DNA from: a virus
Direction: 5' to 3' (one strand)
IMG/VR virus record: IMGVR_UViG_3300027985_001316
Coordinates: 1-36,697 of that record
DNA: 36,697 bases
Position 1 is the stretch's first letter. Each line of letters opens with the position of its first letter. The position numbers and the translations under genes were made by a program. Under the pieces are notes generated by a model, which saw only the letters and a program-made list of their open reading frames with translations, ran no database searches and had not been told where the DNA came from. Of this stretch, positions 2,420-35,795 are shown one piece after another.

Positions 2420-2604
2420 TGCTCCTCGATGGGGCTGTGGTCGTCAGGAGGGACGGGCGCAGCGTCTCCGTAGACCCTCACCTCGAGGCGCCCGTGAGCT
2501 GCCTGTCCACGAGGGCTGGACGCGCACAGGAGCGAGCGTAGCACCCCAGCCTCGGCGGTCGATAGCTGCAGGATTTGGTGACCATTTCTGGACACGAGGA
2601 TCAT
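2416..2604 (-). CDS. small hypothetical protein (62 aa)
   Basis: Not recognised. The ATG at 2604 overlaps the stop of the VRR-NUC gene (ATGA) and its own stop overlaps the GTG of the helicase gene (GTGA), so it is held in a coupled replication operon. The N-terminal part (MILVSRNGHQILQLSTAEAGVLRSLL) suggests a short beta hairpin followed by a helix; the C-terminus is acidic. The longer open frame to 2763 is rejected because it overlaps VRR-NUC coding and lacks an SD. Confidence 0.65.
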   Translation of the reverse strand: MILVSRNGHQILQLSTAEAGVLRSLLCASSPRGQAAHGRLEVRVYGDAAPVPPDDHSPIEEQ

Positions 2605-2948
2605 GGCGTCACCTTGCTGCGCGCTTGCTCGATGACTTTTTTTGCATCGTCGACGCTTCGTACGACCGCGTAGACTCCGCCGTGTGAGCGGATCAGATCC
2701 ATCCACAGCACCTGGTTGCGTGTCTGCTTGGCTCGCCCGGTCTTGGCCTCGAGGCAGATCCATGTGCCATGTGGAGCTAGTATCCCGATGAGGTCAGACA
2801 TCCCGACCGGTCCGGTGCGCATGGGGCGCCCAGTGACGTCGTGCACGCCACCTGGCTGGACGGGCCACAGGAGCAGGTCAGGCTCGTGCCCGAGGGCGAG
2901 TCGTATCTCGCTCACTAGTACAGTGTGTGGGGCAGATCGATTAGGCAC
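2601..2948 (-). CDS. VRR-NUC domain nuclease (115 aa)
   Basis: A stand-alone VRR-NUC endonuclease (PD-(D/E)XK superfamily). Visible catalytic elements are Glu14 in SEIRLALG, the acidic residue of GMSDLIG (Asp52), the E-x-K pair in CLEAKTG (Glu67, Lys69), and Gln79 in TRNQVLWMD. The C-terminal GVYAVVRSVDDA strand-helix is typical of the family. Length fits the single-domain phage version. Such proteins are commonly encoded next to phage SF2 helicases and are thought to cut branched or flapped DNA in replication or recombination. Stops and starts overlap both neighbours by a few bases. Confidence 0.85.
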   Translation of the reverse strand: MPNRSAPHTVLVSEIRLALGHEPDLLLWPVQPGGVHDVTGRPMRTGPVGMSDLIGILAPHGTWICLEAKTGRAKQTRNQVLWMDLIRSHGGVYAVVRSVDDAKKVIEQARSKVTP

Positions 2949-3270
2949 GGGACCTCCGCTGTCGGCACGTGTAGGGGTTTCGACGGACGACCTCAGGCCA
3001 CAGACCTAGGTCCCATAGGGCGGTGCGACCTGTCTCTGTCGCGCAGCCCATGTGCAGGCAGATCTTCTCGATCCTGCCCTCAAATCTAGCGACTGCGTCC
3101 TGCCACTGTGCTCTCTCTGACTCGAGTCTGTCGCGCCGCTCTCTCCAGCATTTGAGTTGGTATGCTATGACTGCGTCGAGGTTCTTGCGCCGCCACCTCC
3201 ATCGCCTACGCTTGCGCTTTGGCCCTTTCATATGTGCGCTCAGTACAGCGATTCTCTCTGTAGGTTTCAT
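2941..3270 (-). CDS. basic hypothetical protein (109 aa)
   Basis: Unrecognised, with a strongly basic N-terminal stretch (KGPKRKRRRWRWRRK) followed by a charged helical, probably coiled-coil, region and a C-terminal part with two isolated cysteines. The basic patch suggests nucleic acid binding (inference). The ATG at 3270 overlaps the helicase stop (ATGA); a GTG two codons earlier at 3276 is an alternative. The 3' end overlaps VRR-NUC by 8 nt. Position between helicase and nuclease genes suggests a replication or recombination accessory role. Confidence 0.65.
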   Translation of the reverse strand: MKPTERIAVLSAHMKGPKRKRRRWRWRRKNLDAVIAYQLKCWRERRDRLESERAQWQDAVARFEGRIEKICLHMGCATETGRTALWDLGLWPEVVRRNPYTCRQRRSRA

Positions 3271-4598
3271 CTCCACCCCGCCTGCTGTTTGAGGGCCTCT
3301 GATGGCCAGCGCTTGTATCTAACTTTGAATTGTAGATATGCCCACCCAGGCTTATATCCTTTGGATCGCGCGGTCTGTATCAGCTGCCGTAGAGCCTGTG
3401 CCTGGCGTGTGGACGTGTGACTTGCGCAAGCGTCCTCGATCCTCTGCCTGACCACGGACGGGTCAGCGCGCAGTGGCATCAGGGCGCCGCACCCTGGGCA
3501 TCTAGGAGGCACAACACCAGGCCCGCGGAATTCCGCCGCGCGAAAGACTCGGCCGCAGACCTCGCACTGGCGGATGGGTAGCAGTCCTGAGGCGCTCTTG
3601 ATGGGCTTGCCCTCGAGGCTGTATTCCCTGTCCTCGTCTGGCAGCCCGTGCTCGATAGACACGCCTGTGAGGTCGAGGACTAGCGCGTCCTGCTTGCCGG
3701 GGGCGGGGCGCATCACTCGCCCGACGGCCTGGATGTAGGACGCCTGCGAGGCGAATCCGCGCGCGAGGATTGCTACCCTCGCATCTGGCACGTCGAGACC
3801 CTCTGTCAGGGTGTGCACTCCTACGAGGATGCGGACGGACCCGGCTCGAAATCGGTCGATGGCTACCTCACGATCGCCGCTCCCCATCTCCCCCGTGATG
3901 GCGCGGGCAGGCACCCCCAGCGCCTCGAATCTGCCAGCCACATCGTTGGACGAGCGGACTGACGAGGCGAAGACAATAGCCTTGCTGTCTGCCCCATACT
4001 GCCTGTATGCCTCGACCGGGTCCTCGGCCAGAGAGCGGCTGGTCCTGGTCGGGCGCTTGACTCGGCACGGTACGAGCCACCCATTGGCGATCAGGTCCCT
4101 GGGCTGTGCGGCCGTCACCAGCGCGTCGAAAAGATTCCCCAGTCCGACACCATCCTGCCTCTCTGGGGTCGCCGTCAGCCCTATCCTGAGCGCATCACGG
4201 TAGGAGTCCGCGACGCTCCCCCACTGCTCTGCTACGTGATGGTGCGCCTCGTCGAGCACGACGACTGTCGCCTGTGGACGCGACTCACGAGCGACGAGTG
4301 TCTGCACCGACGCGACCTGGACACGGGCATGCGGCCGAGGGGATGCCCACGGAGCGATGATCCCCACGTCCTGTCCCTCTCGACGGAGGGCATCGGCGGC
4401 CTGCTGCAGGAGCTCCTGGCGGTGTGCGAGCCACAGGACGTGACCTCCCTTCGCGGACGCACCGCCGGCGAGCTCGCACCCGACTCTGGTTTTGCCCATA
4501 CCGGTCGGTCCGACGATCAGGATGCTGCGAGCGCCACGTCGGTAGTGAGCTCGAGCCGCATCGATCGCCCTCTCCTGATATGGTCGCAGGCCGCCCAT
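3267..4598 (-). CDS. SF2 DEAH-box helicase with zinc finger (443 aa)
   Basis: A complete SF2 helicase. It has Walker A GPTGMGKT (30-37), motif II DEAH (116-119), motif III TATPER (142-147), a second RecA domain with motif V LTEGLDVPD, and motif VI QAVGRVMRP (290-298). After the core comes a four-Cys zinc site (C345-x2-C348 and C367-x2-C370), then a C-terminal segment with the GYKPGWAYLQFKVRYKRWP pattern common in phage helicases of this type. It probably remodels DNA in replication or recombination together with the adjacent VRR-NUC nuclease. The start at 4598 lies 3 bp after the upstream stop. Confidence 0.93.
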   Translation of the reverse strand: MGGLRPYQERAIDAARAHYRRGARSILIVGPTGMGKTRVGCELAGGASAKGGHVLWLAHRQELLQQAADALRREGQDVGIIAPWASPRPHARVQVASVQTLVARESRPQATVVVLDEAHHHVAEQWGSVADSYRDALRIGLTATPERQDGVGLGNLFDALVTAAQPRDLIANGWLVPCRVKRPTRTSRSLAEDPVEAYRQYGADSKAIVFASSVRSSNDVAGRFEALGVPARAITGEMGSGDREVAIDRFRAGSVRILVGVHTLTEGLDVPDARVAILARGFASQASYIQAVGRVMRPAPGKQDALVLDLTGVSIEHGLPDEDREYSLEGKPIKSASGLLPIRQCEVCGRVFRAAEFRGPGVVPPRCPGCGALMPLRADPSVVRQRIEDACASHTSTRQAQALRQLIQTARSKGYKPGWAYLQFKVRYKRWPSEALKQQAGWR

Positions 4599-5236: not shown

Positions 5237-5505
5237 TCCGACACAGACTCCTGAGGCGGGGCGAAATCCTCTGTGGGTGGGTATGCCCATGCCACCGCCG
5301 GGATCCCTGTCGCTCTCTCGATCTGTACCGCTGTCGTGAGCCGTGGCAGCCTGTCCCCCCACAGGAGCCTTGTGATCTGCGGGCCTGAAATCCCTATTTT
5401 CTTAGCCAATTTTCGGTGCGATCCAGCCCTGCCGACCGCCTCCCACATCAGGCGAGCCCCCTCAGAGAAGCGCTCGCCAAGCCGCTTTTGTGCGCCACTA
5501 CTCAT
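5233..5505 (-). CDS. Cro/YdaS-like HTH regulator (90 aa)
   Basis: A small DNA-binding protein with the HTH pattern SHRKLAKKIGISGPQITRLLWGDRLPRLTTAVQIE-like helices (the part after KKIGIS is the recognition helix), ending in the TGIPAVAWA extension common in YdaS/Cro-type phage regulators. It is the first gene of the leftward early operon and is transcribed away from the repressor at 5597 across a shared operator at 5526-5541, a lambda-like cro arrangement. The ATG at 5505 is preferred; an upstream in-frame ATG at 5541 would lie in the operator. Expected role: shut-off of repressor synthesis and commitment to lytic growth. Confidence 0.75.
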   Translation of the reverse strand: MSSGAQKRLGERFSEGARLMWEAVGRAGSHRKLAKKIGISGPQITRLLWGDRLPRLTTAVQIERATGIPAVAWAYPPTEDFAPPQESVSE

Positions 5506-5525
5506 GCTGGGAACCGTGCTGCATC

Positions 5526-5541
5526 TTGACAGCGCTGTCAA
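5526..5541. promoter_or_regulatory. 16-bp palindromic operator between divergent regulators
   Basis: TTGACAGCGCTGTCAA is a perfect dyad. Each arm begins with TTGACA, the -35 consensus, once on each strand, so a bound repressor would cover a -35 in both directions. No convincing -10 is found at 16-18 bp on either strand, so the exact promoters remain unassigned. It is the only strong dyad in the 91-bp gap between the Cro-like gene and the repressor. Confidence 0.65.
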
Positions 5542-5596
5542 CGAGAATCACCTGATAGGTATGACGTTGGCCGCTACCATCTGGCACCATTGGGAG

Positions 5597-6058
5597 ATGT
5601 CGATCGGTGACCGACTACGGATCGCTCGCGAGGAGGCCGGGCTCGGCGTGCGCGAGCTGGCGCGTGAGTGCGGTGTGAGCAACGCTCAGATCTCGCGCCT
5701 CGAGGCTGGCGGGCGCACACCGCGTCCGGACACGCTCCTGCTACTCGCCGACCACCTCGGAGTCCGTGTAGAGTGGCTGCTCGCGGGGCGCGGGGCGATG
5801 CGTCCTGACTCCACTCCGACCGAGCTCGGGCGAGCCGTCGAGTACCTGCGCGGGGAGCTTCCGGACGACTACCTCGACGACGCGCTGCAGAGCGCCGCCT
5901 ACCAGGGGCCGAGGTACACGCGAGACCAGATCGTAATGATGCTGCGAGCACGACACGCTCTGCTGCAGGATGGGGATCTGCCGGACGCGTCTGCAGAGCT
6001 CGCAGGCCAGATCGACAACGTGAGGAGACTGCCTCGGAAACTACCGCCTGACCGCTAG
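5597..6058 (+). CDS. XRE-family repressor without a peptidase domain (153 aa)
   Basis: The N-terminal HTH_3 domain is clear (SIGDRLRIAREEAGLGVREL, then ECGVSNAQISRLEAGGRTPRP and LLLLADHLGVRVEWLL, residues about 2-60). The C-terminal 90 residues are helical and contain no S24/LexA-type Ser-Lys peptidase, so RecA-stimulated self-cleavage is not expected. This is the likely prophage repressor, facing the Cro-like gene. The start at 5597 is chosen by alignment to the usual HTH_3 N-terminus; an ATG at 5561 in frame is an alternative because GGGAG lies too close to 5597. The 3' end overlaps the convergent ImmA-like gene by 18 bp. Confidence 0.8.
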   Translation: MSIGDRLRIAREEAGLGVRELARECGVSNAQISRLEAGGRTPRPDTLLLLADHLGVRVEWLLAGRGAMRPDSTPTELGRAVEYLRGELPDDYLDDALQSAAYQGPRYTRDQIVMMLRARHALLQDGDLPDASAELAGQIDNVRRLPRKLPPDR

Positions 6059-7795: not shown

Positions 7796-8002
7796 ATGGC
7801 GTGGTCGGAAGAGGTGCTCGCGGCCATGCGAGCGTTTGATGAGGAATGTAAGCACGAACGTCTTCGCATGCGAGACGCGTTGCCTTTCACGTGTGAACGT
7901 GCACCCTCTGCCCGTATGGCTCTAGCGTCTACGAAGATAGATGTTGTGGCCTTGATCGCAGGCGGATTGAAGAGGGGATACCCGTACCGGGGTGCAGGAT
8001 GA
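7796..8002 (+). CDS. small hypothetical protein (68 aa)
   Basis: The ATG at 7796 follows the previous stop by 1 bp; the SD is weak (GGGTGA overlapping the upstream stop). Codon use and base composition look less GC-rich than neighbouring genes. The product is helical at the N-terminus (WSEEVLAAMRAFDEECKHERLRMRDAL) with a short hydrophobic IDVVALIAGGL segment near the end. No family recognised. Confidence 0.55.
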   Translation: MAWSEEVLAAMRAFDEECKHERLRMRDALPFTCERAPSARMALASTKIDVVALIAGGLKRGYPYRGAG

Positions 8003-8012
8003 AAGGTGTGTG

Positions 8013-8963
8013 ATGCAAGACTACTATTCTGTTCAAGCAGTAAACATATCCTCCCTAAAGCACATGCGGCGCAGCCCGATGCACTACCTCGAGGTCGTTG
8101 CAAATCAGCGCAAGGACACGAGAGCGCTGGCCCTCGGGCGGGTGGCGCACATGGCTGTCCTAGAGCCGGAGCGATTCGATCGTGCCGCTGTGGTCACACG
8201 GATGTCGCGCACGACCAGAGCATGGGAGCTGCTCGAGCAGCTGTCGTCCACTGGTGAGGTCCCTGTCCTCTACGATGGAGGGGCACGCCGGGGCAAGGCA
8301 TGGGACGCGTTCGCCCGCGACCATGAGGGATGCACCATCGTCCTTGCCTCGGAGTGGGCAGAGATAGAGCCCGTCCTAGAGCGGACGATGGCAGGGGCTG
8401 TGCTGATCTCGGAGCAGGAGTACGAGCAGGCATCTCGCGTCGCTGCGGCAGTACATGCTCACCCGCGAGCGCACGAGCTGCTGCTGGCTGGGCAGGCAGA
8501 GGTGCCCATGTACTGGGCAGACGCCGAGACAGGGATCGACTGCAAGGGCAGGCCGGACTATGTCAGTCCGGCGGCACTAGTCGACCTCAAGCTGACGAGG
8601 AATATCGAGAGCCGGCCTTTTTTCGCGCAGCAATATGGCCTAGGCACTCACCTACAGATCTCGTTCTACTACGACGGACTAGATGCCATTGGGCGCCATG
8701 TCGATGAGGCATACGTGATCGCCGCGGAAAACGTGCGGCCGTATGACGTGGCCGTCTATCGTGTGCCTTCGGATCTGATCGCATTCGGGCGCGACGAGTA
8801 CCGATGGCTGCTCAGGCGTCTGCGAGAGTGCGTCGAGACAGACACGTGGCCTGGTACGTGTCCAGACGTGTCCGACTACGAGATCCCGGCATGGGCATGG
8901 GAGGGGGCACCAGGCGATGTGGAGCTGGATTTCACCGGTGTAGACGGGGCCGAGGCGGCTTAG
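8013..8963 (+). CDS. RecE-like PD-(D/E)XK exonuclease (316 aa)
   Basis: It resembles the phage RecE/exonuclease VIII-like nuclease family. Seen elements are NISSLKHMRRSPMHYL and GRVAHMAVLEPERF (His46) near the N-terminus, Glu163 in QAEVPMYW, Asp182 in GRPDYVS, the D-x-K pair in ALVDLKLT (Asp191, Lys193), and THLQISFYYDG (Gln215, Tyr219). These fit the core order E...D...DxK...QxxxY. The enzyme should resect duplex 5' ends to give 3' single strands for annealing. The ATG at 8013 has AAAGG 8 nt upstream. The next genes are the probable recombination partners. Confidence 0.85.
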   Translation: MQDYYSVQAVNISSLKHMRRSPMHYLEVVANQRKDTRALALGRVAHMAVLEPERFDRAAVVTRMSRTTRAWELLEQLSSTGEVPVLYDGGARRGKAWDAFARDHEGCTIVLASEWAEIEPVLERTMAGAVLISEQEYEQASRVAAAVHAHPRAHELLLAGQAEVPMYWADAETGIDCKGRPDYVSPAALVDLKLTRNIESRPFFAQQYGLGTHLQISFYYDGLDAIGRHVDEAYVIAAENVRPYDVAVYRVPSDLIAFGRDEYRWLLRRLRECVETDTWPGTCPDVSDYEIPAWAWEGAPGDVELDFTGVDGAEAA

Positions 8964-9612: not shown

Positions 9613-9846
9613 ATGGCACGATGCAACAGCTGCGGGGCCAAGATCATCTGGGCAGTCACGCCGAAGGGGGCGCGGATTCCAGTGGACGCGATTCCAACCG
9701 AAGATGGCAACCTGGTCCTCGAGGAGCATAGAGGGCAGCTGGTAGCGTGCGTGGTGGGCCAAGAGCCAGGGCTGTTCGCGTCCCCGCGGCACAAGTCCCA
9801 CTTCGCCACTTGCCCCCATGCCAGCCAGCACAGGAGGCCGAGGTGA
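9613..9846 (+). CDS. zinc-binding phage protein (77 aa)
   Basis: The start MARCNSCGAKIIWAVTPKG, then RIPVDA and GNLVLEE, with a late HKSHFATCPHA, is a familiar small phage protein pattern. C4-x2-C7 and the late His/Cys residues probably bind one zinc. The compact beta structure suggests a nucleic-acid or protein-binding knuckle. It lies 5 bp after the recombination protein and overlaps the next gene by GTGA. The open frame upstream to 9559 is not used. Confidence 0.75.
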   Translation: MARCNSCGAKIIWAVTPKGARIPVDAIPTEDGNLVLEEHRGQLVACVVGQEPGLFASPRHKSHFATCPHASQHRRPR

Positions 9847-10022
9847 CGAACGCCAAGCTCATCCGAGCACTCGCATCGGCGCTCAGAGCAGCCGCGCAGG
9901 AGCTCGAGCGCGAGGCAGCCGCAGCAGCCAGGGAGCGTCCACGTGCGGCGACTTCCCTTGAGATCTCCGAGCTGGACCAGGCGAGGGCGGACAAGATCCT
10001 GGCCAAGCTCGGGATGCTGTAG
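9843..10022 (+). CDS. short helical protein before integrase (59 aa)
   Basis: GTG start at 9843 overlapping the previous stop (GTGA) with a perfect AGGAGG 5 nt upstream. The product is almost wholly helical (an Ala/Glu-rich LASALRAAAQELEREAAAAA segment, then LDQARADKILAKLGML), so probably a coiled coil. No family recognised. It could be a recombination directionality factor by position and size, but it lacks a clear winged helix and this is only a guess. Confidence 0.65.
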   Translation: MTNAKLIRALASALRAAAQELEREAAAAARERPRAATSLEISELDQARADKILAKLGML

Positions 10023-10031
10023 GCTGTCGCA

Positions 10032-11387
10032 ATGACCGACGATCTCCTTGGCTCGATTGAGCCACTCCCATCCGGCCGCTTCCGCTACAGAGTGACCGTG
10101 CGTCGGGTCATCAGCCGGACCACATGCGACACGCTCGCAGAGGCCCAGACGCTGCAGCTCGCGGTGTCCAGCAGGTCGAGGACGCCGAACGCAAAGACGC
10201 TCAAGTCGTTCGGCGCGGAATTCTTGGACTGGCGCGAGACGGTCAAGAAGGCCCGCGGGATCGTGACGGACAGGTCGAGGTGGCGTGTACATGTTGAGCC
10301 GTCTCCGATGGCCCGGATCCCTCTTCGCGAGCTCAAGCAGAGCGACATCGAGAAGTGGGTGGACAGGCTGTCCGGATCAGGACGCACAAAACGCAACACG
10401 CTGAATCTCGTGCGTGTGGCACTCGGCCGTGCCAAGCGGGAGAGATTGATCCAGCAGAACCCTGCCATAGGCGTACACATCGACGAGCCTGACGAGAGCG
10501 CCTGGACGTACCTGTCCGCATCAGATCAGAGCACTCTGATGTCATCTGAGGTCATCCCATGGGCAGACAGAGTCGCGATCTCGTTTGCGATTGGGACAGG
10601 CGTACGTCAGGGAGAGCAGTGGGCGCTCGAGCTGCGAGACCTGCACCTCGACGACGACGACCCGCACGCAATCATCCGGTGGGGGAGCCGTGCGAAGCCC
10701 ACCAAGACAGGACGCGTGCGTCGAGTCCCAATCCTGCCGTGGCTCGTACCGATCATGCAGGCGTGGGTGCGTGCCTTGCCCGCATTCCTCATGAGCCCAT
10801 CAGGGAAGAAGGCCTACGCCAACGAGCACGGTCTCGTTTTCCCTACGGCTCGCGGGTGCTACAGGCGAGCGAAGAAGCCGCCTCGAGGCTGGGACCGATG
10901 GCTCACTCGTCTCGAGATCCGCGGAGTGACAGGGCACCAGGTCGTGTGGCACTCGCTCAGGCACACGTGTGCCTCGATGCTGGTGTCTGGAGCATGGGGG
11001 CGCAGGTGGACGCTGCAGGAGGTGGCCGAGCTGCTAGGTCACGCCAGCGTCACCACGACCGAGAGGTACGCGCACCTGGCAGAGGGCACGATCGCTAGAG
11101 CTGCCAGAGAGACGATGCCACGGTCGTGCCACGCCATCGTCCAATCTTCGCGCGCCACAGTGGATTCGAACCACTGGCCTTCGGTTCCGGAGACCTGCGA
11201 AAACCACGAGTGGATCCGAGGTCTTGAGCCATCTGTGGCATCAGACGTGGCACGGCTGGCAGCAGCTTACCTTGAGGCTGTCGCCGACGCAGACAAGCGT
11301 CACGTGGCGATTGGGTGCAGACTCGCTGAGGCTGTGCTCGCGTCGTTCGAGTCGGACGGCATGTCAGCCATTTCCAGAGTCCGTTGA
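10032..11387 (+). CDS. int: tyrosine integrase with attP inside its coding region (451 aa)
   Basis: A complete tyrosine recombinase. It has an N-terminal arm-type domain, a SAM-like core-binding domain (about 55-150), and catalytic residues Arg192 (GTGVRQGEQW), His307 and Arg310 (WHSLRHTCAS), His337 (LLGHAS) and nucleophile Tyr346 (TTTERYAHL). After the nucleophile a 105-residue tail follows, unusually long; residues 374-387 are encoded by a sequence matching the 3' half of a tRNA gene, the probable attP core. The catalytic core is therefore complete before the crossover, and only the tail (about 388-451) would be replaced on integration. Start ATG at 10032. Confidence 0.93.
   Translation: MTDDLLGSIEPLPSGRFRYRVTVRRVISRTTCDTLAEAQTLQLAVSSRSRTPNAKTLKSFGAEFLDWRETVKKARGIVTDRSRWRVHVEPSPMARIPLRELKQSDIEKWVDRLSGSGRTKRNTLNLVRVALGRAKRERLIQQNPAIGVHIDEPDESAWTYLSASDQSTLMSSEVIPWADRVAISFAIGTGVRQGEQWALELRDLHLDDDDPHAIIRWGSRAKPTKTGRVRRVPILPWLVPIMQAWVRALPAFLMSPSGKKAYANEHGLVFPTARGCYRRAKKPPRGWDRWLTRLEIRGVTGHQVVWHSLRHTCASMLVSGAWGRRWTLQEVAELLGHASVTTTERYAHLAEGTIARAARETMPRSCHAIVQSSRATVDSNHWPSVPETCENHEWIRGLEPSVASDVARLAAAYLEAVADADKRHVAIGCRLAEAVLASFESDGMSAISRVR
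11151..11192 (-). other. probable attP core: 3' half of tRNA-Arg(CCG)
   Basis: On the minus strand this reads as an anticodon loop CTCCGGA (anticodon CCG at 11190-11188), anticodon 3' stem ACCGA, variable loop AGGCC, T-stem AGTGG, T-loop TTCGAAT, T-stem CCACT, acceptor strand GTGGCGC and discriminator G. The T-arm pairs perfectly. Sequence 5' of the loop no longer pairs well with ACCGA (two mismatches), so identity to a host tRNA probably ends near the anticodon loop. No 5' half and no encoded CCA are present, so it is not a tRNA gene. Phages commonly carry such a segment to restore the tRNA they integrate into. Confidence 0.8.
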
Positions 11388-23582: not shown

Positions 23583-24688
23583 CACTTGCGGCCCTTTCCG
23601 CTCTCGATCGAATCGATTCGGTCATTCAAATGCGTAAGGCCGGCCAGCATCGCCCCGTATGCCTGGCCCGTGTCGACTCCCAGCATGCCTGTACGCGGGT
23701 CCTCGACGACCATTGTGCGGCCTACCTTCGTCCTCTGGAGGTCCTGCGCCATCGGGCCAATGTGCTGTCTACCGCCGTCGTCCCATCTCTCTCCTCGCTT
23801 GTAGCGCCACCAATACGCCTTGGTTTTCTCGAGGAAATCATCGACGTCTGGATTGCCTGCGTCTCCACCCTTGTCCTTCGCTCGCTCGTCGGAGCCGATG
23901 ATCCCTCCTGCTGCCATCAGACCGGTCCCGAGCGTACCCATCGCGTCCTGTCCGCTCTGCTGTGTCGCTGCCTGCGATCTCTCGTCCTGGATCCTGCGCA
24001 GCATCATGTCGTCCCACTCATCCCGCCTGCGCTGCGCGTCGTCACGATCAAGCTCTGGCGACTTGCTCACCATCTTGGTGAGCACCTTGTCCCCAGGCGT
24101 CTCCTCCACGGGCCGGATGTCTGTCTTGGCTCGGACGTCGGACATCATCGCGCCGGCAGCGATCGCTGCGCCAGCTGCGGACACGAGGCCGCCTCCTGCA
24201 CGCTGGTCTCGTGACACCTGGGCCTCACTCTGATTCGACCAGTTCGACTGCCACTGGTTGTGCGCTGCGGCCTTGCCTAGCTGGTAATCCTGCTCTGCCC
24301 GGCGCTGGTCAGCGAGCATCTGCCCGTATGCCTGCTCGGCCTGCGCCTGCTCCGCCGCCCGCATCTTCGCCGCGTCGGCTGCAGTCTGCTGCCCCATATT
24401 CGCGGCGTTTTGCGCTGCATTGTACTGCGCTGCCCCGCGTGCAGCACCCGACCCGGTGGCAGACCTCGACTGCGCCCACTGCGCCGCCTGCGCCTGGTTG
24501 AGGCCGGACCTCAGCTGCGCCTCCGCTACGGATGGGGACTTGCCCTCGATTCGGTCGCGGTACTTGTCTTCGAGCCAATGCTGGTACGACCGATTTAGGG
24601 TGATCTGCCTATCATCGTAGGTGTACTGCTCGGGCACGTGCGAGTCGCCGCCCGACATCCCTGTCCAGAGCCAGTCAAATACCGACAT
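23582..24688 (-). CDS. virion protein with C-terminal S74 intramolecular-chaperone-like domain (368 aa)
   Basis: The N-terminus is a helical Gln/Ala-rich region (residues 40-165) with internal-virion-like composition and a short hydrophobic GLVSAAGAAIAAGAMM. From residue 266 the sequence SDERAK, then FLEKTKAYWWRYK, GPMAQDLQRT and MLGVDTGQAYG, LTHLNDRIDSIE matches the peptidase S74 (endosialidase chaperone) domain, whose Ser-Lys pair in SDxRxK self-cleaves. A second SDVRAK at 183-188 precedes a shorter spacer. ATG 24688 overlaps the upstream TAA (TAATG). S74 domains normally cap trimeric fibres, so this may be a trimeric tail or injection component. Confidence 0.75.
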   Translation of the reverse strand: MSVFDWLWTGMSGGDSHVPEQYTYDDRQITLNRSYQHWLEDKYRDRIEGKSPSVAEAQLRSGLNQAQAAQWAQSRSATGSGAARGAAQYNAAQNAANMGQQTAADAAKMRAAEQAQAEQAYGQMLADQRRAEQDYQLGKAAAHNQWQSNWSNQSEAQVSRDQRAGGGLVSAAGAAIAAGAMMSDVRAKTDIRPVEETPGDKVLTKMVSKSPELDRDDAQRRRDEWDDMMLRRIQDERSQAATQQSGQDAMGTLGTGLMAAGGIIGSDERAKDKGGDAGNPDVDDFLEKTKAYWWRYKRGERWDDGGRQHIGPMAQDLQRTKVGRTMVVEDPRTGMLGVDTGQAYGAMLAGLTHLNDRIDSIESGKGRK

Positions 24689-26586
24689 TATCCTCTTGCC
24701 TCCGAATGCAGCCGGAACAGCCCAGTCACGACTCCTATCTGCAGCGACATGGCCTCCCAACGAACGCATTTAGCGGGCTTCGCCTCAGGTGTAGCAGTCA
24801 CCTTGACGCGCATTGCCTCGCATTTTCTAGCGATGTGGATCTCTAGCTGTTCTCTGCTCCCGACCAGCGCTGCTGTCACCTGTGCAGGTGTGCGGGTGAT
24901 CGTAGCTGCCGCTGTCGCGCTGTGGTCGAAGTAGAGGTCGACCTGGAGTGAGTGCGCCGACAGCCATGTCCCGAGCAGCTGCAGCTTGCGGATCTTCTGG
25001 AATCCTTGCACCCCTGCGAATTGGACCCACGCTGAAGACACGACCATAGCGGCCCCGTCTCCAGTCCCTGTATCGTCTGTCCTGTCGTCGTCGTCCAGAT
25101 ACAGGACGGAGGCAGTCCCCTGCATGAGGTGGTACTCCTGCTCCGCATCAGACGGCGTGCCGGCTGTGCCTCTGCTCGCCATGCACGAGGACCATGTCAT
25201 CGAGTCAGCACCACCGCCGACTGTCGGGAGGTGCCAGATCACCCATTCGTTTGAGGCATGGTCCCATGCAGCAGTCACACCGTTCTTTGTTGCATCCGAC
25301 AGGCTGACGAGCACGAGCCCTCGGGCAGCGTCGTACACGGCGCTGGTGACCACAGGATACGCCTCCAGCGTGTCGGTGATTGGGGCGCTGACGAGCTGCA
25401 CGTCCAGTCCTCGACCTATGACGTACAGCCCATCCTGTGCCTGGAATACGACGCCTGCCGGGCAGCTCACGACGGACCTGGCATCGATGCACCCGCACTC
25501 CACGCTGAGCTGCACAGGGCCGTCGAGCTGCCCTCCCTGTCCCATGTCGTTGTCTGGAGTCCCGACCAGCGCGTAGATCGTCGTGCGCTTGAAGCACAGC
25601 AGCTTTTCGTCGAGCGGTGCAAGCGCGACGAACTCGCCGTCGACATCGTGACGGATCACCCTCGTATACGGGTCCCACCCCGGTGCTCGCGGCCAGTCGC
25701 TCGTGTCCTTCGAAATCCAGATCTCCGTCGCCCTCTCGGCCGAGATCATCCACAGCCACGTCCTGTGCGCCACGATGTGCCTAGCTGCAGGTGGCTGCCA
25801 GTTCGGCATCACTCCACCGTCCGTGTAGAGCACCTCTCTCGCCTGGATGTCATCGTCTGTCGCGTACTTCCCGGGCTCCACCGTTATGACGTAGTCCTCC
25901 CTCACGTTCTCGTACTCGTGTTCGAGGTAGTACGTCGTGCCGTTCGCGACCGTGCGATACAGCTCGATCCAGACTGGGAATTCCTCGCAGTCCGCATCCC
26001 AGCGCTCAGTCAGAGTGAGCGGGAACGCGTCGAAGGTGTAGTAGTCGTCGGCGTACGGCGCTCCGAACGAGTGCACGACAGGCAGAGACGGGATAGACCT
26101 GTGCACGACACCGCGCTGGTCGATCCACTTGTAGACGATTTTTGCCGAGTAGTCTGCAGCGTCAGACCCTGTAAGCTTCCCTCCAGACGGCTGGTATGTG
26201 GTGCTATTTGACACGACAGGAGCCGTGTGGAATCCGGCCTCGCAGCACCTGTGGTGGTCGACGATTGCAGGGACCCCACCGCTCAGCACAGGCCCGCCCT
26301 GGCACACTGTAGGGAGGTGCATTGTGCGCATGTCGTCGAAGTCGAAAACGAACGCGTCGAATCCCTCGGACGCCTCCACGAGAGCCCTGTGCCCGTATCC
26401 GACGTCCTCTGTGAGCGAGTCAGAGACGATCGGGACTGATACGATGTACCTGTCTGACGTCTCGCACACTGCGAGGTTGGATGGCAGATCTCCGCCGCCC
26501 TTCGCGTCCGCCAGCTTGTAGATCTCGCCAGTGGCGAATCTCGACACGACTCTGACCTGGCTCGCCTCGTCGCATGTCAGGACCAT
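24688..26586 (-). CDS. beta-propeller-like tail/portal-vertex protein, second part (632 aa)
   Basis: Long beta-rich protein with repeated strand motifs such as VYDAARGLVLVSLSDATKN, AAWDHASNEWVIWHL and GLYVIGRGLDVQLVSA, typical of the propeller-like stabilisation/stopper proteins of short-tailed phages. No enzymatic motif. ATG 26586 comes 1 nt after the stop of the gene before (TGACATG), with GGAG 8 nt upstream. It and the 26588 gene probably build one assembly, and may correspond to a single longer protein in relatives. Confidence 0.7.
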   Translation of the reverse strand: MVLTCDEASQVRVVSRFATGEIYKLADAKGGGDLPSNLAVCETSDRYIVSVPIVSDSLTEDVGYGHRALVEASEGFDAFVFDFDDMRTMHLPTVCQGGPVLSGGVPAIVDHHRCCEAGFHTAPVVSNSTTYQPSGGKLTGSDAADYSAKIVYKWIDQRGVVHRSIPSLPVVHSFGAPYADDYYTFDAFPLTLTERWDADCEEFPVWIELYRTVANGTTYYLEHEYENVREDYVITVEPGKYATDDDIQAREVLYTDGGVMPNWQPPAARHIVAHRTWLWMISAERATEIWISKDTSDWPRAPGWDPYTRVIRHDVDGEFVALAPLDEKLLCFKRTTIYALVGTPDNDMGQGGQLDGPVQLSVECGCIDARSVVSCPAGVVFQAQDGLYVIGRGLDVQLVSAPITDTLEAYPVVTSAVYDAARGLVLVSLSDATKNGVTAAWDHASNEWVIWHLPTVGGGADSMTWSSCMASRGTAGTPSDAEQEYHLMQGTASVLYLDDDDRTDDTGTGDGAAMVVSSAWVQFAGVQGFQKIRKLQLLGTWLSAHSLQVDLYFDHSATAAATITRTPAQVTAALVGSREQLEIHIARKCEAMRVKVTATPEAKPAKCVRWEAMSLQIGVVTGLFRLHSEARG

Positions 26587-29933: not shown

Positions 29934-31160
29934 TCAGGAGAAATCCAGCCTGAAGTTGCGGCCTGGGGCCTCGCAGTAGAGCTGGTGATACGCCGCTATC
30001 TGCGCGCGCTGCTGGTCATATCCGGACCGAGGAGTCCAGATCGTGCCTGTCCCGTGCGTCTTCTGCCAGCGCGGTCGGCCCTTGAGAGTCCACACGCTCG
30101 GGTCCAGCCCGAACGCCGTGGAATACGGGCAGAAGTCGGATGGGATAACCTCCACATCGCCGTTATTTGTGGCGAGGATGACTGCTGTGTAGCCGAGACC
30201 TGCCTTCTTGTCCGTCACTGCGTCCCGACGCTGCACACGCGATCCAAGCTCGATGACAAGCTCTGCCCATCGCATGCTGTTGATGATGATCTTCGAAACG
30301 CTCTTCGCCCCTCGAACGCTCGCCTTGTAGACGGCGTTCACGAGCGCGTCTTCGTTCGTTTCTCCTGTGCTCGTGAGGCGGATACCTGAGAGCTTGTTGA
30401 CCGCCGCACTGCGATCTACGGAGAAGAACGAGTCGCCTAACGTCGGGGCTGTCGCAGGCAGCCATGCCTCGAGGCCGTATAGATTCCAGCTCCCGCCGAC
30501 GGAATAGGCCCTGAAGAGGTAGTCGGACGCGGCGACAGTGGCGATCCCGGCTGCCCACGAGGCGCCTGTGACGGTGATCGTACCTGCCTCTGTGTCGATG
30601 CTCTCGATCGTCACGTACCCTGATTTCGCCGACGTGGCAGGCGTAGCAGTGGTCTGTGCCTGCAGTAGCATTCCCTCCTTGAAATAGTGGATATCGTTTG
30701 TGTCAGCGAGCGTGATCGTGTCAGTCGCGACGTTGGACGTCGCCGAGATTTGCCCACGGACACCGCTCCCGTTGCCGTAGAATTGGAACGCGATATCCTC
30801 TCCGAACTCGTCTGTTACGCCCTTCACTTCGCTGTCGAGCGCCTCAAGGAATGTGTCTTTCTTGTCCTTAGCGATCTCAAACAGCTCGTTGTCCAGGTTG
30901 CAGAAGCCGTAGTACTTCGAGCGCGTCACGATGAAATCCTCGTAGGTGTTGTGCCCGTCGATCGCCTCGACGGATGCGAATACACCGCCGACCGATTGGC
31001 CTCTGCCGTACTGGATCGGTACGGCGCAGGATTTGCCGCTGAAGACGTCGACCTTCTTGATCAGCTGCGGAAGCGGATCCATGTGCTCCGGCAGGCGGTG
31101 GAGGGTCGCGTCGTAGTTGATGTGCAGAAGGCTGTCGAACGTCGTCGGAGTCGGTGCCAT
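29934..31160 (-). CDS. major capsid protein (408 aa)
   Basis: Position after the scaffold gene, length and sequence fit an HK97-fold capsid protein: an N-arm (TFDSLLHINYDATLHRLPEHM), an E-loop-like VPIQYGRGQSVGGVFASVEA, a long helix (DTFLEALDSEVKGVTDEFGE), an inserted beta subdomain (about 165-235), and a P-domain with SKIIINSMRWAELVIELGS and a C-terminal A-domain. ATG 31160 has GGGAG 8 nt upstream; that SD can pair with an upstream complement at 31225-31234. It is preceded by a 214-bp untranslated gap, the longest in the late region, fitting high or separately controlled expression. Confidence 0.88.
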   Translation of the reverse strand: MAPTPTTFDSLLHINYDATLHRLPEHMDPLPQLIKKVDVFSGKSCAVPIQYGRGQSVGGVFASVEAIDGHNTYEDFIVTRSKYYGFCNLDNELFEIAKDKKDTFLEALDSEVKGVTDEFGEDIAFQFYGNGSGVRGQISATSNVATDTITLADTNDIHYFKEGMLLQAQTTATPATSAKSGYVTIESIDTEAGTITVTGASWAAGIATVAASDYLFRAYSVGGSWNLYGLEAWLPATAPTLGDSFFSVDRSAAVNKLSGIRLTSTGETNEDALVNAVYKASVRGAKSVSKIIINSMRWAELVIELGSRVQRRDAVTDKKAGLGYTAVILATNNGDVEVIPSDFCPYSTAFGLDPSVWTLKGRPRWQKTHGTGTIWTPRSGYDQQRAQIAAYHQLYCEAPGRNFRLDFS

Positions 31161-31162
31161 GA

Positions 31163-31234
31163 TGGCTCTCCCGTGCCTCGTGCGAGGCGAGCAAACCGTT
31201 TTGGGTAGGACCCGAAACCAGTCGGGGAGAGCCA
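31163..31234 (-). promoter_or_regulatory. capsid mRNA leader with SD-sequestering inverted repeat
   Basis: TGGCTCTCCC at 31163-31172 and GGGAGAGCCA at 31225-31234 are a perfect 10-bp inverted repeat. On the leftward mRNA the 3' arm is the capsid gene's own SD region. Between them a compact hairpin (GCCTC-GTGC-GAGGC, 31175-31188) can form. Pairing could hide the SD or set up a translational switch. Confidence 0.45.
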
Positions 31235-31302
31235 CCAGCACCGGCCTGTGGAGGCCAGCGGCAGAAGCTTGCGTCGAGGGCGGCTCGGCTTCTGCTCACA
31301 CA

Positions 31303-31374: not shown

Positions 31375-32307
31375 CTATTCGAGTTTCGAGAGTAGGTCTA
31401 GCGCAGCAGCTCGGCGCTCTTCCGGCGTCATGTCTTTGGGCTCGATCGACCGCGCCGACTCGCGTGTGCGTGACGACAGCGCAGGAGCTCGAGCGGCTGG
31501 AGATGGCTGCGATCGCTTGGCAGCGGCCTTTGCAAGGCGATCGTACTGAGCGGAGATCCGGCGCTCCAGCTCAGCGGCTGCAGCCGACGGGTCCAGCTCT
31601 GTGTGCGTGCGCATCCAGTGCCGCTTTCGGATCTCGTGCATAGCCTCTCCTACGTCCTCCGGCGACTCGTCCGCGAGGAATGGGTACGCGTCAGCCTTCG
31701 TCCGCACGTACTCCGCACACGCCTCCTGGTCCGCTCTCACAGCCGCGGCAATCCGGCTCTGCTGGTACTCGGATCGCGACTGCTCCTGCTCTCCCTTGAG
31801 GCGATCCACCTCCTGCCTGAGCTTCGCGATCTCTGGGTCGACCTTCGGAGGGACATCCTTCGCTGGCTTGCCCAGGATTGCTTGGGTCAGCGCCTGGAGG
31901 TCGACGCCAGCGCGCTCCAGGAATGCAATCGGGTCCGACGTGGCGAGAGCCTTCGTCGACTGCCATTCGGAGCGATCTCGCTCGAATTCCTCGCGCTCTG
32001 CCTTCAATTTCGCGCGTGCCTCAAGCGCGCGCAACTCCTTCGCCGCGAGGTCAGACAGCAGCTTTGACCTCTTTCTCTCGGCCTGTGACGGCTCCTTGGG
32101 CTGCTCCTCGGACTGCTCCTCGGCCTGAGCGCTCGTTGTGTCTGCCGGGGCATCGGCGGCCTGAGTCTGCTCAGACTCTTCCCCCAACGCGTCCAGGAGC
32201 GCGTTGGCTCGCTCCGTCGCGGTGGGCTCGTGTGTCGAGTCCTGTCCAGCCTCCTGCACGCTCTCGGCGGCATCCTGGGTCTCTGTCGCTGTGTCAATCT
32301 GCTTCAT
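31375..32307 (-). CDS. scaffolding protein (310 aa)
   Basis: Highly charged, Ala/Glu/Lys-rich, helical and coiled-coil protein between the portal and capsid genes, the classic scaffold position. The N-terminus is acidic and disordered (TATETQDAAESVQEAGQDS), a long coiled coil spans about residues 70-185, and the C-terminus is basic then ends RRAAALDLLSKLE, a helix-turn typical of capsid-binding tails. ATG 32307 overlaps the portal stop (ATGA). No protease motif, so it is probably not self-cleaving. Confidence 0.8.
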   Translation of the reverse strand: MKQIDTATETQDAAESVQEAGQDSTHEPTATERANALLDALGEESEQTQAADAPADTTSAQAEEQSEEQPKEPSQAERKRSKLLSDLAAKELRALEARAKLKAEREEFERDRSEWQSTKALATSDPIAFLERAGVDLQALTQAILGKPAKDVPPKVDPEIAKLRQEVDRLKGEQEQSRSEYQQSRIAAAVRADQEACAEYVRTKADAYPFLADESPEDVGEAMHEIRKRHWMRTHTELDPSAAAAELERRISAQYDRLAKAAAKRSQPSPAARAPALSSRTRESARSIEPKDMTPEERRAAALDLLSKLE

Positions 32308-34133
32308 GACGGCATCTCCGGTGGTGTCGCGACGGGGGGCTGCCCCGGCGGTATCTGCTGCTCTGCACCTGGAGGTGGAGCAGGCTGGCTGTCCTCCTCG
32401 AGGAATATGACCTCGTCGAGCCACTGGCGGACCAGGCCGATGCGCTCTTCTGGGGCCTCGTCCAGGTGCGCGAGGAGGATCGCCTGCTCTGCCCTCTCAC
32501 GAGCGTACGCGAGAGGTAGCTCGGGCCATGGTGGCTCGTATTTGCCCTCCTCAAGCATCCTCTCGATGAATCGCTCCACGACCTGTACGCCAGCGGTCTT
32601 TCGCGCGACGACACCATCCAGATCCGGTAGCTCGAGCAGGCTCATCGCCTCCATCGGTGTGAGCTCACCGGCCTGCTTGTACCGAATGATCAGGTCGATG
32701 TCGTGCGAGGGCTCGCCTGTCAGACCGCTGACCGGATGCGGACGCAAGACGTACTCCTCGCCCTCCTCGGGCTCCCAGTAGTCGATTCGCTTGGCGATCT
32801 CCTTGCCGTACCGGCGCCCGACGTAGAGCGCGCTGTACCCTCCCTTCCGCTTCGCCAATTGGCCAGCAGTCGCCAAGCAAAGCTTCGCCGAATCGACATG
32901 CCAGTCCTGGTACTCCTGCGACGGGTGGACGTACCGGCCTGACTGCACGTCCTCATACATGCGAATCGCCTCACCGCTTTCGAAGCGCGCAGGGAGCTTT
33001 GCCTGCGCGCTCATCTCCGACAGCCCCACCTGCTGGAATGCCCTTGAAACAAGCTGCCATACGAGCTCGTAGACCTCAGGGGGGACGACCTGGACCGTCA
33101 CGATCTGCGGAGGGCGACCGGTGTATTCAATGAAATCTACCTCGTGTGCGTCGGTGAACTGCGCTGGATTTACCTTGCTTCCGCGCTCGAGCATCACGTG
33201 AGCCTTCCCCAGCTCGCGCAGAGAGGTGAGGATCTGCGTCATGAGTGCGTTGATCGCCATCTGGATCCCGTAGACGTCGTCTAGCACTGACCTCCCCCAA
33301 AACCCTCGCAGGGGCGGGCGAAATCGCAAGAACGAAAACGGGAATCGGTCGAGCTCCCACGGCTCGTCGATCAGAGTCGCCCCCTCGATCGCGATCACAT
33401 GCCTGCCGTCATCTGAGTCGGGCGAGGACCTCAGATGCCACGCCTCTGTGACGAGTAGCTGGTCCGCCTGTGGGTCGTGCCCGGGGTACTCGAGGTCATC
33501 CGCGTCGCCGTCGCCCGCCTCGTCGATTTCGGCACCGTACGACGAGAACATCTCGATGAGCTGCGTACGGTCCCAATACGTGCGGTGGAACAGATTCCGC
33601 GGACGTCCGTACCTCGCGTCCACGTCGTCGACCCACAGCTCCTCGGGGGGGACAGCCTCCAGCACGACATCATCGAGCGCAGTCGCCTTGATCACTCCTG
33701 TCCCCGAGACAGCAGCCTCGAGCGCGCACATGCGGGCGAGCGTGCGCATTTGATTCGCGTACCACACGCCGTCGACGAATTCGGTTCGCTCCTGTGCCTT
33801 GCGCTGCAGTGAGTAGTCACCGCCAACGGAGACGTGCATGATGCGAGGCTTCGTTGCGGCGACGCGCGATGTGAATCCGTCGCATACCTGTGAGATGATG
33901 TTGATCGGCAAAGGCTCCCTGTTGTCCCTCGTCGTGACGTGCGTGAAGCCATAGAGCGTCTCTGCCCGTGCCCCGTACAGCTCGTGCGCCTCGAGGATGT
34001 CGGAGATCCGCGACTGCTGGTGTGTGCGGATTGCCCTGCACGTCGACAGCACCTTCTCGCCGACATCCGTCTTACTCGCGCGCCACCAATGCCCGGGGCG
34101 CTCCTGTCTTGCAGACCTTGAAATTCGTGCCAT
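32304..34133 (-). CDS. portal protein (609 aa)
   Basis: Length and order (TerL, small protein, portal, scaffold, capsid) fit. The N-terminal region has VLSTCRAIRTHQQSR and PLPINIISQVCDGFTSRVAATKPRI, the wing region LEAVPPEELWVDDVDARYG and NLFHRTYWDRTQLIEMF, and a long stem-crown helix around DVYGIQMAINALMTQILTSL. The C-terminus is Pro/Gln-rich. Such portals form the dodecameric DNA channel at one capsid vertex. ATG 34133 has GGAGGT immediately upstream (4-nt spacing), 2 bp after the previous stop. Confidence 0.88.
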   Translation of the reverse strand: MARISRSARQERPGHWWRASKTDVGEKVLSTCRAIRTHQQSRISDILEAHELYGARAETLYGFTHVTTRDNREPLPINIISQVCDGFTSRVAATKPRIMHVSVGGDYSLQRKAQERTEFVDGVWYANQMRTLARMCALEAAVSGTGVIKATALDDVVLEAVPPEELWVDDVDARYGRPRNLFHRTYWDRTQLIEMFSSYGAEIDEAGDGDADDLEYPGHDPQADQLLVTEAWHLRSSPDSDDGRHVIAIEGATLIDEPWELDRFPFSFLRFRPPLRGFWGRSVLDDVYGIQMAINALMTQILTSLRELGKAHVMLERGSKVNPAQFTDAHEVDFIEYTGRPPQIVTVQVVPPEVYELVWQLVSRAFQQVGLSEMSAQAKLPARFESGEAIRMYEDVQSGRYVHPSQEYQDWHVDSAKLCLATAGQLAKRKGGYSALYVGRRYGKEIAKRIDYWEPEEGEEYVLRPHPVSGLTGEPSHDIDLIIRYKQAGELTPMEAMSLLELPDLDGVVARKTAGVQVVERFIERMLEEGKYEPPWPELPLAYARERAEQAILLAHLDEAPEERIGLVRQWLDEVIFLEEDSQPAPPPGAEQQIPPGQPPVATPPEMPS

Positions 34134-34135
34134 TC

Positions 34136-34357
34136 CTACCTCCGCACGTGAGCGAATCGCAACGCCTCTGCCGCGTCACGGATCTCTCGTAGAGTCTGTT
34201 CCCTTGTTTTTGGCGGGGTCTTCTCCTCGCCAGGATCCAGAACAGAGTCCCACGCTGGGTCGACGCGCACCTCCAAATCGCCAACCCTCGCGTACACTAC
34301 TCTATTCTTTCGCATCCACCGAACAATCTCGTCCAACCTGTCGACGTCACCTGCCAT
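34136..34357 (-). CDS. small protein between TerL and portal (73 aa)
   Basis: Sequence opens with a helix (DRLDEIVRWMRKNRVVYARVG) then DLEVRVDPAWDS, and closes with a charged Lys/Arg helix. Small proteins of this sort lie between terL and portal in many short-tailed phages; function unknown. ATG 34357 overlaps the TerL stop by 11 nt with GAGG 5 nt upstream. Confidence 0.7.
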   Translation of the reverse strand: MAGDVDRLDEIVRWMRKNRVVYARVGDLEVRVDPAWDSVLDPGEEKTPPKTREQTLREIRDAAEALRFAHVRR

Positions 34358-35795
34358 ATTGCCTCGCTCTCTGCCACCACGTGGCCTTGTTCGCCTCGTC
34401 CGCCTCGCGGTCGTGTGCTTCCTCTAGCTCTTTCTCGAGCTCCGCCATGCGCTCCTCACGCGTCATCGCGTGCCTGCTACCGGTCGCGATTGCGAGGTAT
34501 CCCTTGCATCTGCGCCATGCGTACAGACCAGCGTCGAGCACGTGATTTGGTACCTTGCGGCGCTCTTTCGTTTTCGTTTTGTCAGACCACGGTAGCCTCC
34601 GCGCCTGCGATATCCACTCTTGGCATGCCCCTGCTACTACTCGGAGCATACCTGTCTTGAGGTCGCCGTTCATCAGCTCGATGTAGCCTCGTTTCCCTTC
34701 TTTTTCTGCCGGCTCGATGGGGATCCCGTACCTCTCTCGCAGCTCCCTGATGTACCCGATCCCAAGGGCTCCAGCGTCTCCGACGATGGCCTCGAGGTCG
34801 ACAGACTTCGAAAACACTCCTATCCGTCGGGCAATAGAGCTCGTCGTCGCCCCTGCCTCTGTCTCTGCCTCGACGAGGTACGCCACCGGCTGCGAGTCCG
34901 AGTACGCCGTCAGCACGTAGGCGGTAGTCGGGTCGTCCTCCGCAGCTCCAAAATCTACTCCGAGCACATACCTCCAGCACCCGGTAGGCATCGACGCCAC
35001 ATCGCACGCTGACGAGTACCCCGAGTAGACGAGCATCGACGGGTCGTGCACTCGCTCGCCGAGGTACTCGCGCCGGAACGTCGGGTGGTCTGGCGTCCAC
35101 TTGCGCCGGTGCAGCACGTGCTCGAGCTCACCGGGTGGCATGTACGGGTTGTCCCGCATCGTCCACGGCTCGCAGATCGTCCAGCCGTCCTGCTTGCCAT
35201 CGAGGATCTCGGGGACCAGCCCGACATCGATCGCGCCTGGACTCGTGATCATGTCCACAGACCCCTGCCAGTACGCGGTCGCAGGGGACAGGACCTCGTC
35301 GACCAGCTCGTGCAGGTAGTCGCCAAAAAACCAGGCCTCGTCTATCACGCACCTGCGGTACTTCGGGCCCCGAAATGGGCGGACGTGAGACCTGTCGGGG
35401 CAGCCCCTCACAGCTATTTTCGACCCATTCGGCAGGATGTATTCGAGGTCCTCCGACCGCCAAATACCCTGCAAATTGTGCGTCCGGTCCAGCTCGAGCA
35501 GCGTCGGGACGATGACTGTCACAGCCTCCTGCCGCGTGATCGCGATGTACAGCGACAGCGACCCGGGGGCATCGAGCGCGCCATCGATCAGCCTCGTCCC
35601 GGCACCGTAGGACTTGCCTCCCTGCCTCGCACAGACAGCCACGACATTGCGACCAGGTGCCTCAACGAACGCCCTCTGCCGTGGATGGCACGCGGACCGC
35701 AGGGATTCCCGCACGCCAGACACTCTGCGCTCTCTGGCCGCGATCTCTCGCAGCACAGCCAGCTCGGCCGCTATCTCCTCAGCTGTGCGAGGCAT
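34347..35795 (-). CDS. terL: terminase large subunit (482 aa)
   Basis: Packaging motor ATPase and nuclease. ATPase: Walker A CARQGGKS (55-62) and Walker B RRCVIDEAW (147-155, Asp152/Glu153), then a TSPGAID coupling-like motif at 184-190. Nuclease (RNase H fold): Asp281 in LGVDFGAAEDDPTT, Asp340 in IVGDAGALG, and Asp421 in NHVLDAGLYAWR. Length is at the short end of the family but complete. ATG 35795. Nearby small genes do not resemble TerS; the best TerS candidate lies at 148-696, next to this region if the genome is circular. Confidence 0.95.
   Translation of the reverse strand: MPRTAEEIAAELAVLREIAARERRVSGVRESLRSACHPRQRAFVEAPGRNVVAVCARQGGKSYGAGTRLIDGALDAPGSLSLYIAITRQEAVTVIVPTLLELDRTHNLQGIWRSEDLEYILPNGSKIAVRGCPDRSHVRPFRGPKYRRCVIDEAWFFGDYLHELVDEVLSPATAYWQGSVDMITSPGAIDVGLVPEILDGKQDGWTICEPWTMRDNPYMPPGELEHVLHRRKWTPDHPTFRREYLGERVHDPSMLVYSGYSSACDVASMPTGCWRYVLGVDFGAAEDDPTTAYVLTAYSDSQPVAYLVEAETEAGATTSSIARRIGVFSKSVDLEAIVGDAGALGIGYIRELRERYGIPIEPAEKEGKRGYIELMNGDLKTGMLRVVAGACQEWISQARRLPWSDKTKTKERRKVPNHVLDAGLYAWRRCKGYLAIATGSRHAMTREERMAELEKELEEAHDREADEANKATWWQRARQYGR

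Follow-up and report, generated by a model that had tools for sequence, protein, structure and literature searches.

A likely attachment-site core inside a phage integrase gene and the likely exchange of the integrase tail on integration

The integrase gene of an IMG/VR virus record (36,697 bases, ~64% G+C, analysed over its whole length and hereafter called the window) contains, within its open reading frame and read antisense, the 3' half of a tRNA-Arg(CCG) gene. In this virus of soil bacteria, the segment is likely the core of the phage attachment site (attP), and integration likely exchanges the C-terminal tail of the enzyme. That the window phage itself uses the site is inferred; hybrid integrase ends and far repeats are shown in integrated relatives.

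Systems of this kind are already known from the Myxococcus phage Mx8. Attachment sites in integrase genes have been attributed to 'very few' elements, with Mx8 named (PMC4701971), and the Islander authors allow for integrases extending across attP, naming Mx8 and SSV (PMC4383910). New here are the clade-wide extent of the arrangement, the range of target tRNAs and of their orientations, the stop codon in the D-arm, and evidence for a conserved detachable tail domain, of which we found no description in the open-access literature searched (most subscription journals lay outside the search). An intragenic attP, once thought rare, is the rule in a clade drawn from Polyangiales genomes and metagenomic phages. 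For annotation, this means that the phage and prophage integrases of one element differ in their C termini, and that the missing piece of int is left as an orphan frame at the opposite end of the prophage.

The integrase gene and its probable attP core

The gene int (10032..11387, plus strand) encodes a tyrosine integrase of 451 residues in the phage (attP) form (PF00589, E 4e-16; phrog_1 integrase, E 6e-45). The catalytic set of R192, K225, H307, R310, H337 and Y346 (codons within 10605..11069) is intact, and these residues are invariant in eight relatives and likewise in 40. All six precede the attP core, Y346 being the last. The core is in frame with int and sits between Y346 and a tail of exactly 64 residues (388-451; 11193..11384), which belongs to the phage form only and is predicted to be lost on integration. 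An earlier note on the window had placed the catalytic residues before the core and about 64 residues after it; both statements held, with K225 added to the set. Residues 362-387 (11115..11192) form a linker that is disordered in the structural model (pLDDT <50), the second half of the linker being encoded by the antisense tRNA segment. Apart from the tail, the model has a fold like those of Tn1549 Int and lambda Int, with an N-terminal domain resembling those of arm-binding integrases.

The core comprises 41 nt (11152-11192 on the plus strand), and identity to the host tRNA continues for 2 nt, to 11150. On the minus strand it reads CTCCGGA (the anticodon loop, with CCG), ACCGA, AGGCC (a 5-nt variable region), AGTGG TTCGAAT CCACT (a perfect T-arm), GTGGCGC (acceptor strand) and G; the whole match (11150..11192) runs from the anticodon loop to the discriminator plus 1 nt. 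Host tRNA-Arg(CCG) genes, for example from Sorangium cellulosum So0157-2, Polyangium and other Polyangiales, agree at 42 of the 43 bases (blastn E about 1e-14), and with one mismatch in 43 and this E-value the match is not due to chance. The earlier note's reading of the segment as the 3' half of tRNA-Arg(CCG), with its named arms, is thus upheld by a near-exact host match, and the alignment to tRNA-Arg genes that it proposed showed a host tRNA match spanning the anticodon loop and everything 3' of it. A relaxed core pattern found 16 loci in GTDB contigs, of which 15 are titled Sorangium, Polyangium or other myxobacterial or deltaproteobacterial names and one only 'Proteobacteria'. ARAGORN, and Rfam at its gathering cut-off, called no tRNA in the window, as expected where only half a tRNA gene is present.

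The sole mismatch in the core is at tRNA position 39, where the phage has A and all hosts found have G. At position 31, immediately beyond the core, the phage has T and the hosts have C; the phage sequence would therefore fit a host whose tRNA pairs U31 with A39. The true host tRNA probably has this pair, an inference made from the sequence alone. None of the 184 Polyangiales genomes contains a tRNA-Arg(CCG) with A39, so these genomes hold no exactly matching host tRNA, and the exact 41-nt core has no match in the viral contigs or the GTDB contigs.

The gene content of the window suggests, again by inference from sequence, that it likely represents a temperate podovirus-like phage. Genes for a terminase (34347-35795), a portal (32304-34133), a major head protein (29934-31241) and an internal-virion-like protein (24688-26586) are on the minus strand, exonuclease VIII (7992-8963) is on the plus strand, and helicase and primase genes are located in the left part. 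A CI-like repressor (5273..6058, plus strand; phrog_8, E 3e-17, and further repressor families) supports a temperate life style. Distant kin of the terminase occur in four of the 184 Polyangiales genomes, and on one contig (G092:C37) the genes for terminase, portal and head protein are ordered as in the window. A small ORF (9747-10022; 91 residues counted from the first start) stops 10 nt short of int and is, by position only, a possible candidate for a directionality factor.

With the window fused in silico to the 5' half of the Sorangium tRNA, the predicted prophage integrase has 393 residues instead of 451. It lacks residues 388-451 and in their place has ADALSS and a stop, giving the C terminus SVPEADALSS (...RATVDSNHWPSVPEADALSS). 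The stop (TGA) falls within the antisense D-arm. The earlier note had proposed that the hybrid frame would run through the host tRNA 5' half 'and beyond'; the latter part failed, since in this frame the stop lies inside the tRNA. The rebuilt tRNA is still recognized as tRNA-Arg(CCG) by ARAGORN, and with a Sorangium-like host it contains a C31-A39 mismatch in the anticodon stem.

Integrated relatives and extent of the clade

We used an alignment of eight relatives (A1) as the query for profile searches. It gave matches in 87 of the 184 Polyangiales genomes, and in a phylum-wide draw of 379 genomes strong matches occurred only in genomes already found. Viral contigs searched with the single Int protein yielded no relative. 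The A1 alignment retrieved 77 loci from IMG/VR, about 27 of them close, and most of these IMG/VR relatives have a tRNA 3' part within int, followed by a tail.

In the integrated relatives, int enters an intact tRNA gene antisense and mostly stops 63-64 nt into it, in the D-arm. One of these (L096/G157:C172) is integrated in tRNA-Arg(CCG) and reads it in the same frame as the window; its integrase ends in RATEDSNLWPSAPEADALSS followed by a stop, which is the end predicted for the window. A 47-bp direct repeat is present at the far end of this element, which measures about 34 kb. We rejected the possibility that it is the same phage as the window, as only int matches.

An intact tRNA beside int is not in itself proof of integration, because on one phage contig (L101, 3515-3589) the int 3' end faces a complete tRNA-Trp gene in antisense, with phage sequence on both sides. 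The pairing of L101 with L102 as prophage and phage forms in tRNA-Trp was rejected, as the two are collinear again 1.3 kb past the tRNA. Integration was counted as proven only with far repeats. When the far side of seven int loci was searched, a second copy of the tRNA 3' part was found in six. Besides the tRNA-Arg(CCG) element, these are G013 (Lys; repeat of 56 bp), G010 (Arg-TCT; 145 bp), G022 (Arg-CCT; 65 bp), and G053 and G054 (both Thr; 46-47 bp). All six relatives combine a hybrid int 3' end with a far repeat, and rejoining the six repeat pairs in silico keeps the frame open and restores a phage-form integrase with 47-139 extra residues. The expectation in the earlier note that prophage int would end in the antisense 5' half of the host tRNA is met in silico for the window and by the hybrid ends of the integrated relatives; the genome search that it suggested did not find a lysogen of the window phage in the bacterial genomes searched.

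The 60-kb element in tRNA-Lys of G013 has a second integrase remnant (C1, near 4962850-4963101) immediately beyond its far repeat, a possible hint that the site has been used repeatedly.

We counted arrangements in 84 non-redundant clade members, treating related sequences as separate. Half of them (42) run into an intact antisense tRNA, where 30 stop inside and 12 read through into host sequence. Another 27 have a tRNA 3' part inside the ORF (20 antisense, a few of them at contig ends, and seven sense), in five the ORF closes ahead of an antisense tRNA, and the remaining members could not be assigned. Some attP-like members have very short tails. As a control, 26 further tyrosine integrases encoded in these genomes were counted, and none overlaps a tRNA. 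The tRNAs neighbouring clade members represent about a dozen isoacceptors, in both orientations.

A minority of the clade carries the tRNA 3' part in sense orientation inside int (L003, 4519-4559; L047, L053, L056, L060, L063, L115 and L124), so intragenic attP occurs in both orientations. Two integrases outside the clade profile (L005, 246-2075; L012, 3557-4921) have C termini that overlap tRNA-Arg(CCG) sequence, one in the attP form and the other ending inside an intact tRNA; the intragenic tRNA habit is therefore not confined to the clade.

The tail as a probable protein domain

Within the window tail, residues 400-441 (11229..11354) are predicted with confidence to form a helical hairpin (AlphaFold2, pLDDT 83-93), and the modelled L100 integrase has the same hairpin. 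We consider it likely that the detachable tail is a real conserved domain, a helical hairpin that follows a disordered linker encoded by tRNA sequence, with the hairpin resting on model prediction and a function inferred.

The homology of the tails is shown by several comparisons. The score of the window tail against the L100 tail, whose core derives from a different tRNA, was reached by none of 3000 shuffles (z 9.2), and that against the L118 tail was equalled or exceeded by only three of 3000. Two unlike integrases with different targets, L005 and G013, have tails that are 58% identical over 65 codons (z 20). A tail-only profile built from three tails, with the window excluded, was run on 20,122 six-frame segments; after its own seeds, its top matches were the L048 tail, with E 0.018, and the window tail, with a modest E 0.13. 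With the L048/L104 and L098/G157 tail profiles, the first match was likewise another integrase tail, and overall the tail-only profiles recovered chiefly tails of other integrases. No family in Pfam or PHROG fits the tail, and a tail profile gave only chance-level matches in the 184 Polyangiales genomes.

Coding character is shown by tail dN/dS values of 0.2-0.7 in five of six informative pairs, the exception being L100/L109 (about 1, with no synonymous excess). GC3 is lower in the window tail than in int (0.62 versus 0.77).

An alternative is that the tail has no protein function, attP having drifted into the int 3' end and both tails being tolerated read-through in high-GC DNA. In its favour, chance open frames are long in this DNA, 12 of the 84 relatives read through the tRNA into host sequence and so acquire arbitrary tails, and some attP-like members have hardly any tail. 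Tail length was accordingly rejected as evidence of function: random joins are open for as long in 30-44% of trials. We nevertheless regard this alternative as unlikely, as the tails are homologous as proteins among phages with different tRNA targets, most close pairs show a synonymous excess, and the hairpin prediction is confident. It is this homology across different tRNAs, and not length, that makes the tail more than read-through.

A second alternative holds that the conserved DNA past the core consists mainly of arm-type Int/Xis binding sites (a P' arm), with the protein reading as a by-product. Lambda-type systems need arm sites near the core, and the integrase model has an N-terminal domain of the arm-binding type. 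However, the similarity is at the amino-acid level with synonymous sites diverged, and no clear family of arm-type repeats was found around the core; we find this explanation very improbable.

A third, proposed by analogy, gives the tail the role of a degron or stability switch, such that free-phage integrase would be short-lived and integration would remove the tag. The mycobacteriophage BPs provides the model: its attP is in the repressor gene and integration removes an ssrA-like tag (PMC4557955). Tails of several relatives end in small hydrophobic residues (e.g. GVA, EVA, VVA, ETA). The window tail, however, ends in SRVR, which is not ssrA-like, and the conserved part is the internal hairpin. 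A degron is in our judgement not a likely explanation.

A perfect 12-nt inverted repeat (11221-11232/11388-11399) flanks the int tail, with one arm directly after the int stop.

Proposed tail exchange and known systems

We favour the reading of the tail as a conserved detachable domain and propose the following mechanism. The attP lies within the int coding sequence, in the disordered linker that joins the complete catalytic domain to the C-terminal helical-hairpin domain. In a Polyangiales host, the integrase would recombine the core with the tRNA-Arg(CCG) 3' half and thereby restore the host tRNA. Integration would detach the hairpin domain and move its coding sequence, without a start codon, to the far prophage end, while the prophage int would end in the antisense host tRNA, the D-arm providing the stop (about 393 versus 451 residues). 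Excision would reverse the exchange and return the domain to the integrase.

The likeliest purpose would be a state-dependent enzyme, with a long integrase in the free phage and a short one in the lysogen that perhaps differ in activity or direction as in Mx8. The function of the tail is inferred and there are no activity data for the clade, and we see the case for a regulatory role as evenly balanced; the suggestion in the earlier note that the two forms may differ in excision activity is likewise hypothetical. In a bolder reading, which could equally prove right or wrong, a widespread integrase clade has evolved a detachable regulatory domain as a built-in directionality switch. As recombination takes place in the linker, the integrase would by its own reaction remove the domain at integration and restore it at excision, and the host tRNA would supply the stop codon of the prophage form. 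The conserved hairpin makes it testable whether such phages switch integrase state via recombination itself.

The closest precedent, also named in the earlier note and confirmed here from the literature, is Mx8 (AF396866; Tojo 1996; Magrini 1999), likewise a temperate myxobacterial phage with a tyrosine integrase and attP inside the int ORF. On integration, its integrase exchanges a C terminus of 112 residues for one of 13, and the enzyme so modified has lower activity (PMC4701971); a change of specificity and a lysogenic-lytic switch have also been described (PMC6070905). Behind its catalytic domain, Mx8 Int shows a stretch that resembles antisense tRNA (ARSTGLEPVLLGSF), as does the window integrase. 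The similarity of the Mx8 tail to tails of the window clade is weak. The two integrases share only 25% identity over 249 residues (E 2e-11 as a single comparison), and Mx8 is not among the tblastn matches of the window integrase at 1e-5. The myxophage Mx9 (Julien 2003), which recombines at specific attachment sites, is described as similar in principle (PMC6070905).

Other systems share only part of the arrangement. The 'suicidal' archaeal integrases of the SSV type also have attP inside int, but integration splits the N-terminal from the catalytic part and disrupts the gene (PMC8371274); in the window, all catalytic residues stay with the N-terminal part. In BPs, attP is inside a regulatory ORF and the prophage form has a shortened C terminus, as here, but the gene encodes a repressor whose tail carries the degradation tag (PMC4557955); the window core is in int, and the repressor-like ORF is elsewhere (5273-6058). 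Streptococcal ICE integrases at rumA have the att site in the integrase gene and exchange the C terminus (PMC4701971), but they are serine recombinases with a protein-gene target.

Two further observations concern sequences around the core. Two contigs of one MAG (L008, 715-833; L005, 536-654) are identical over 119 bases around the core and diverge beyond them, which would fit the coexistence of excised and integrated forms in the sample, although this is only a possibility. In two related phages, L118 and L119, the int genes (2474-3847) differ at 51 positions, mostly at codon position 3, but at none of the last 261 nt. This stretch contains the core along with the linker and the tail, and a recent exchange of the tail module at attP is possible.
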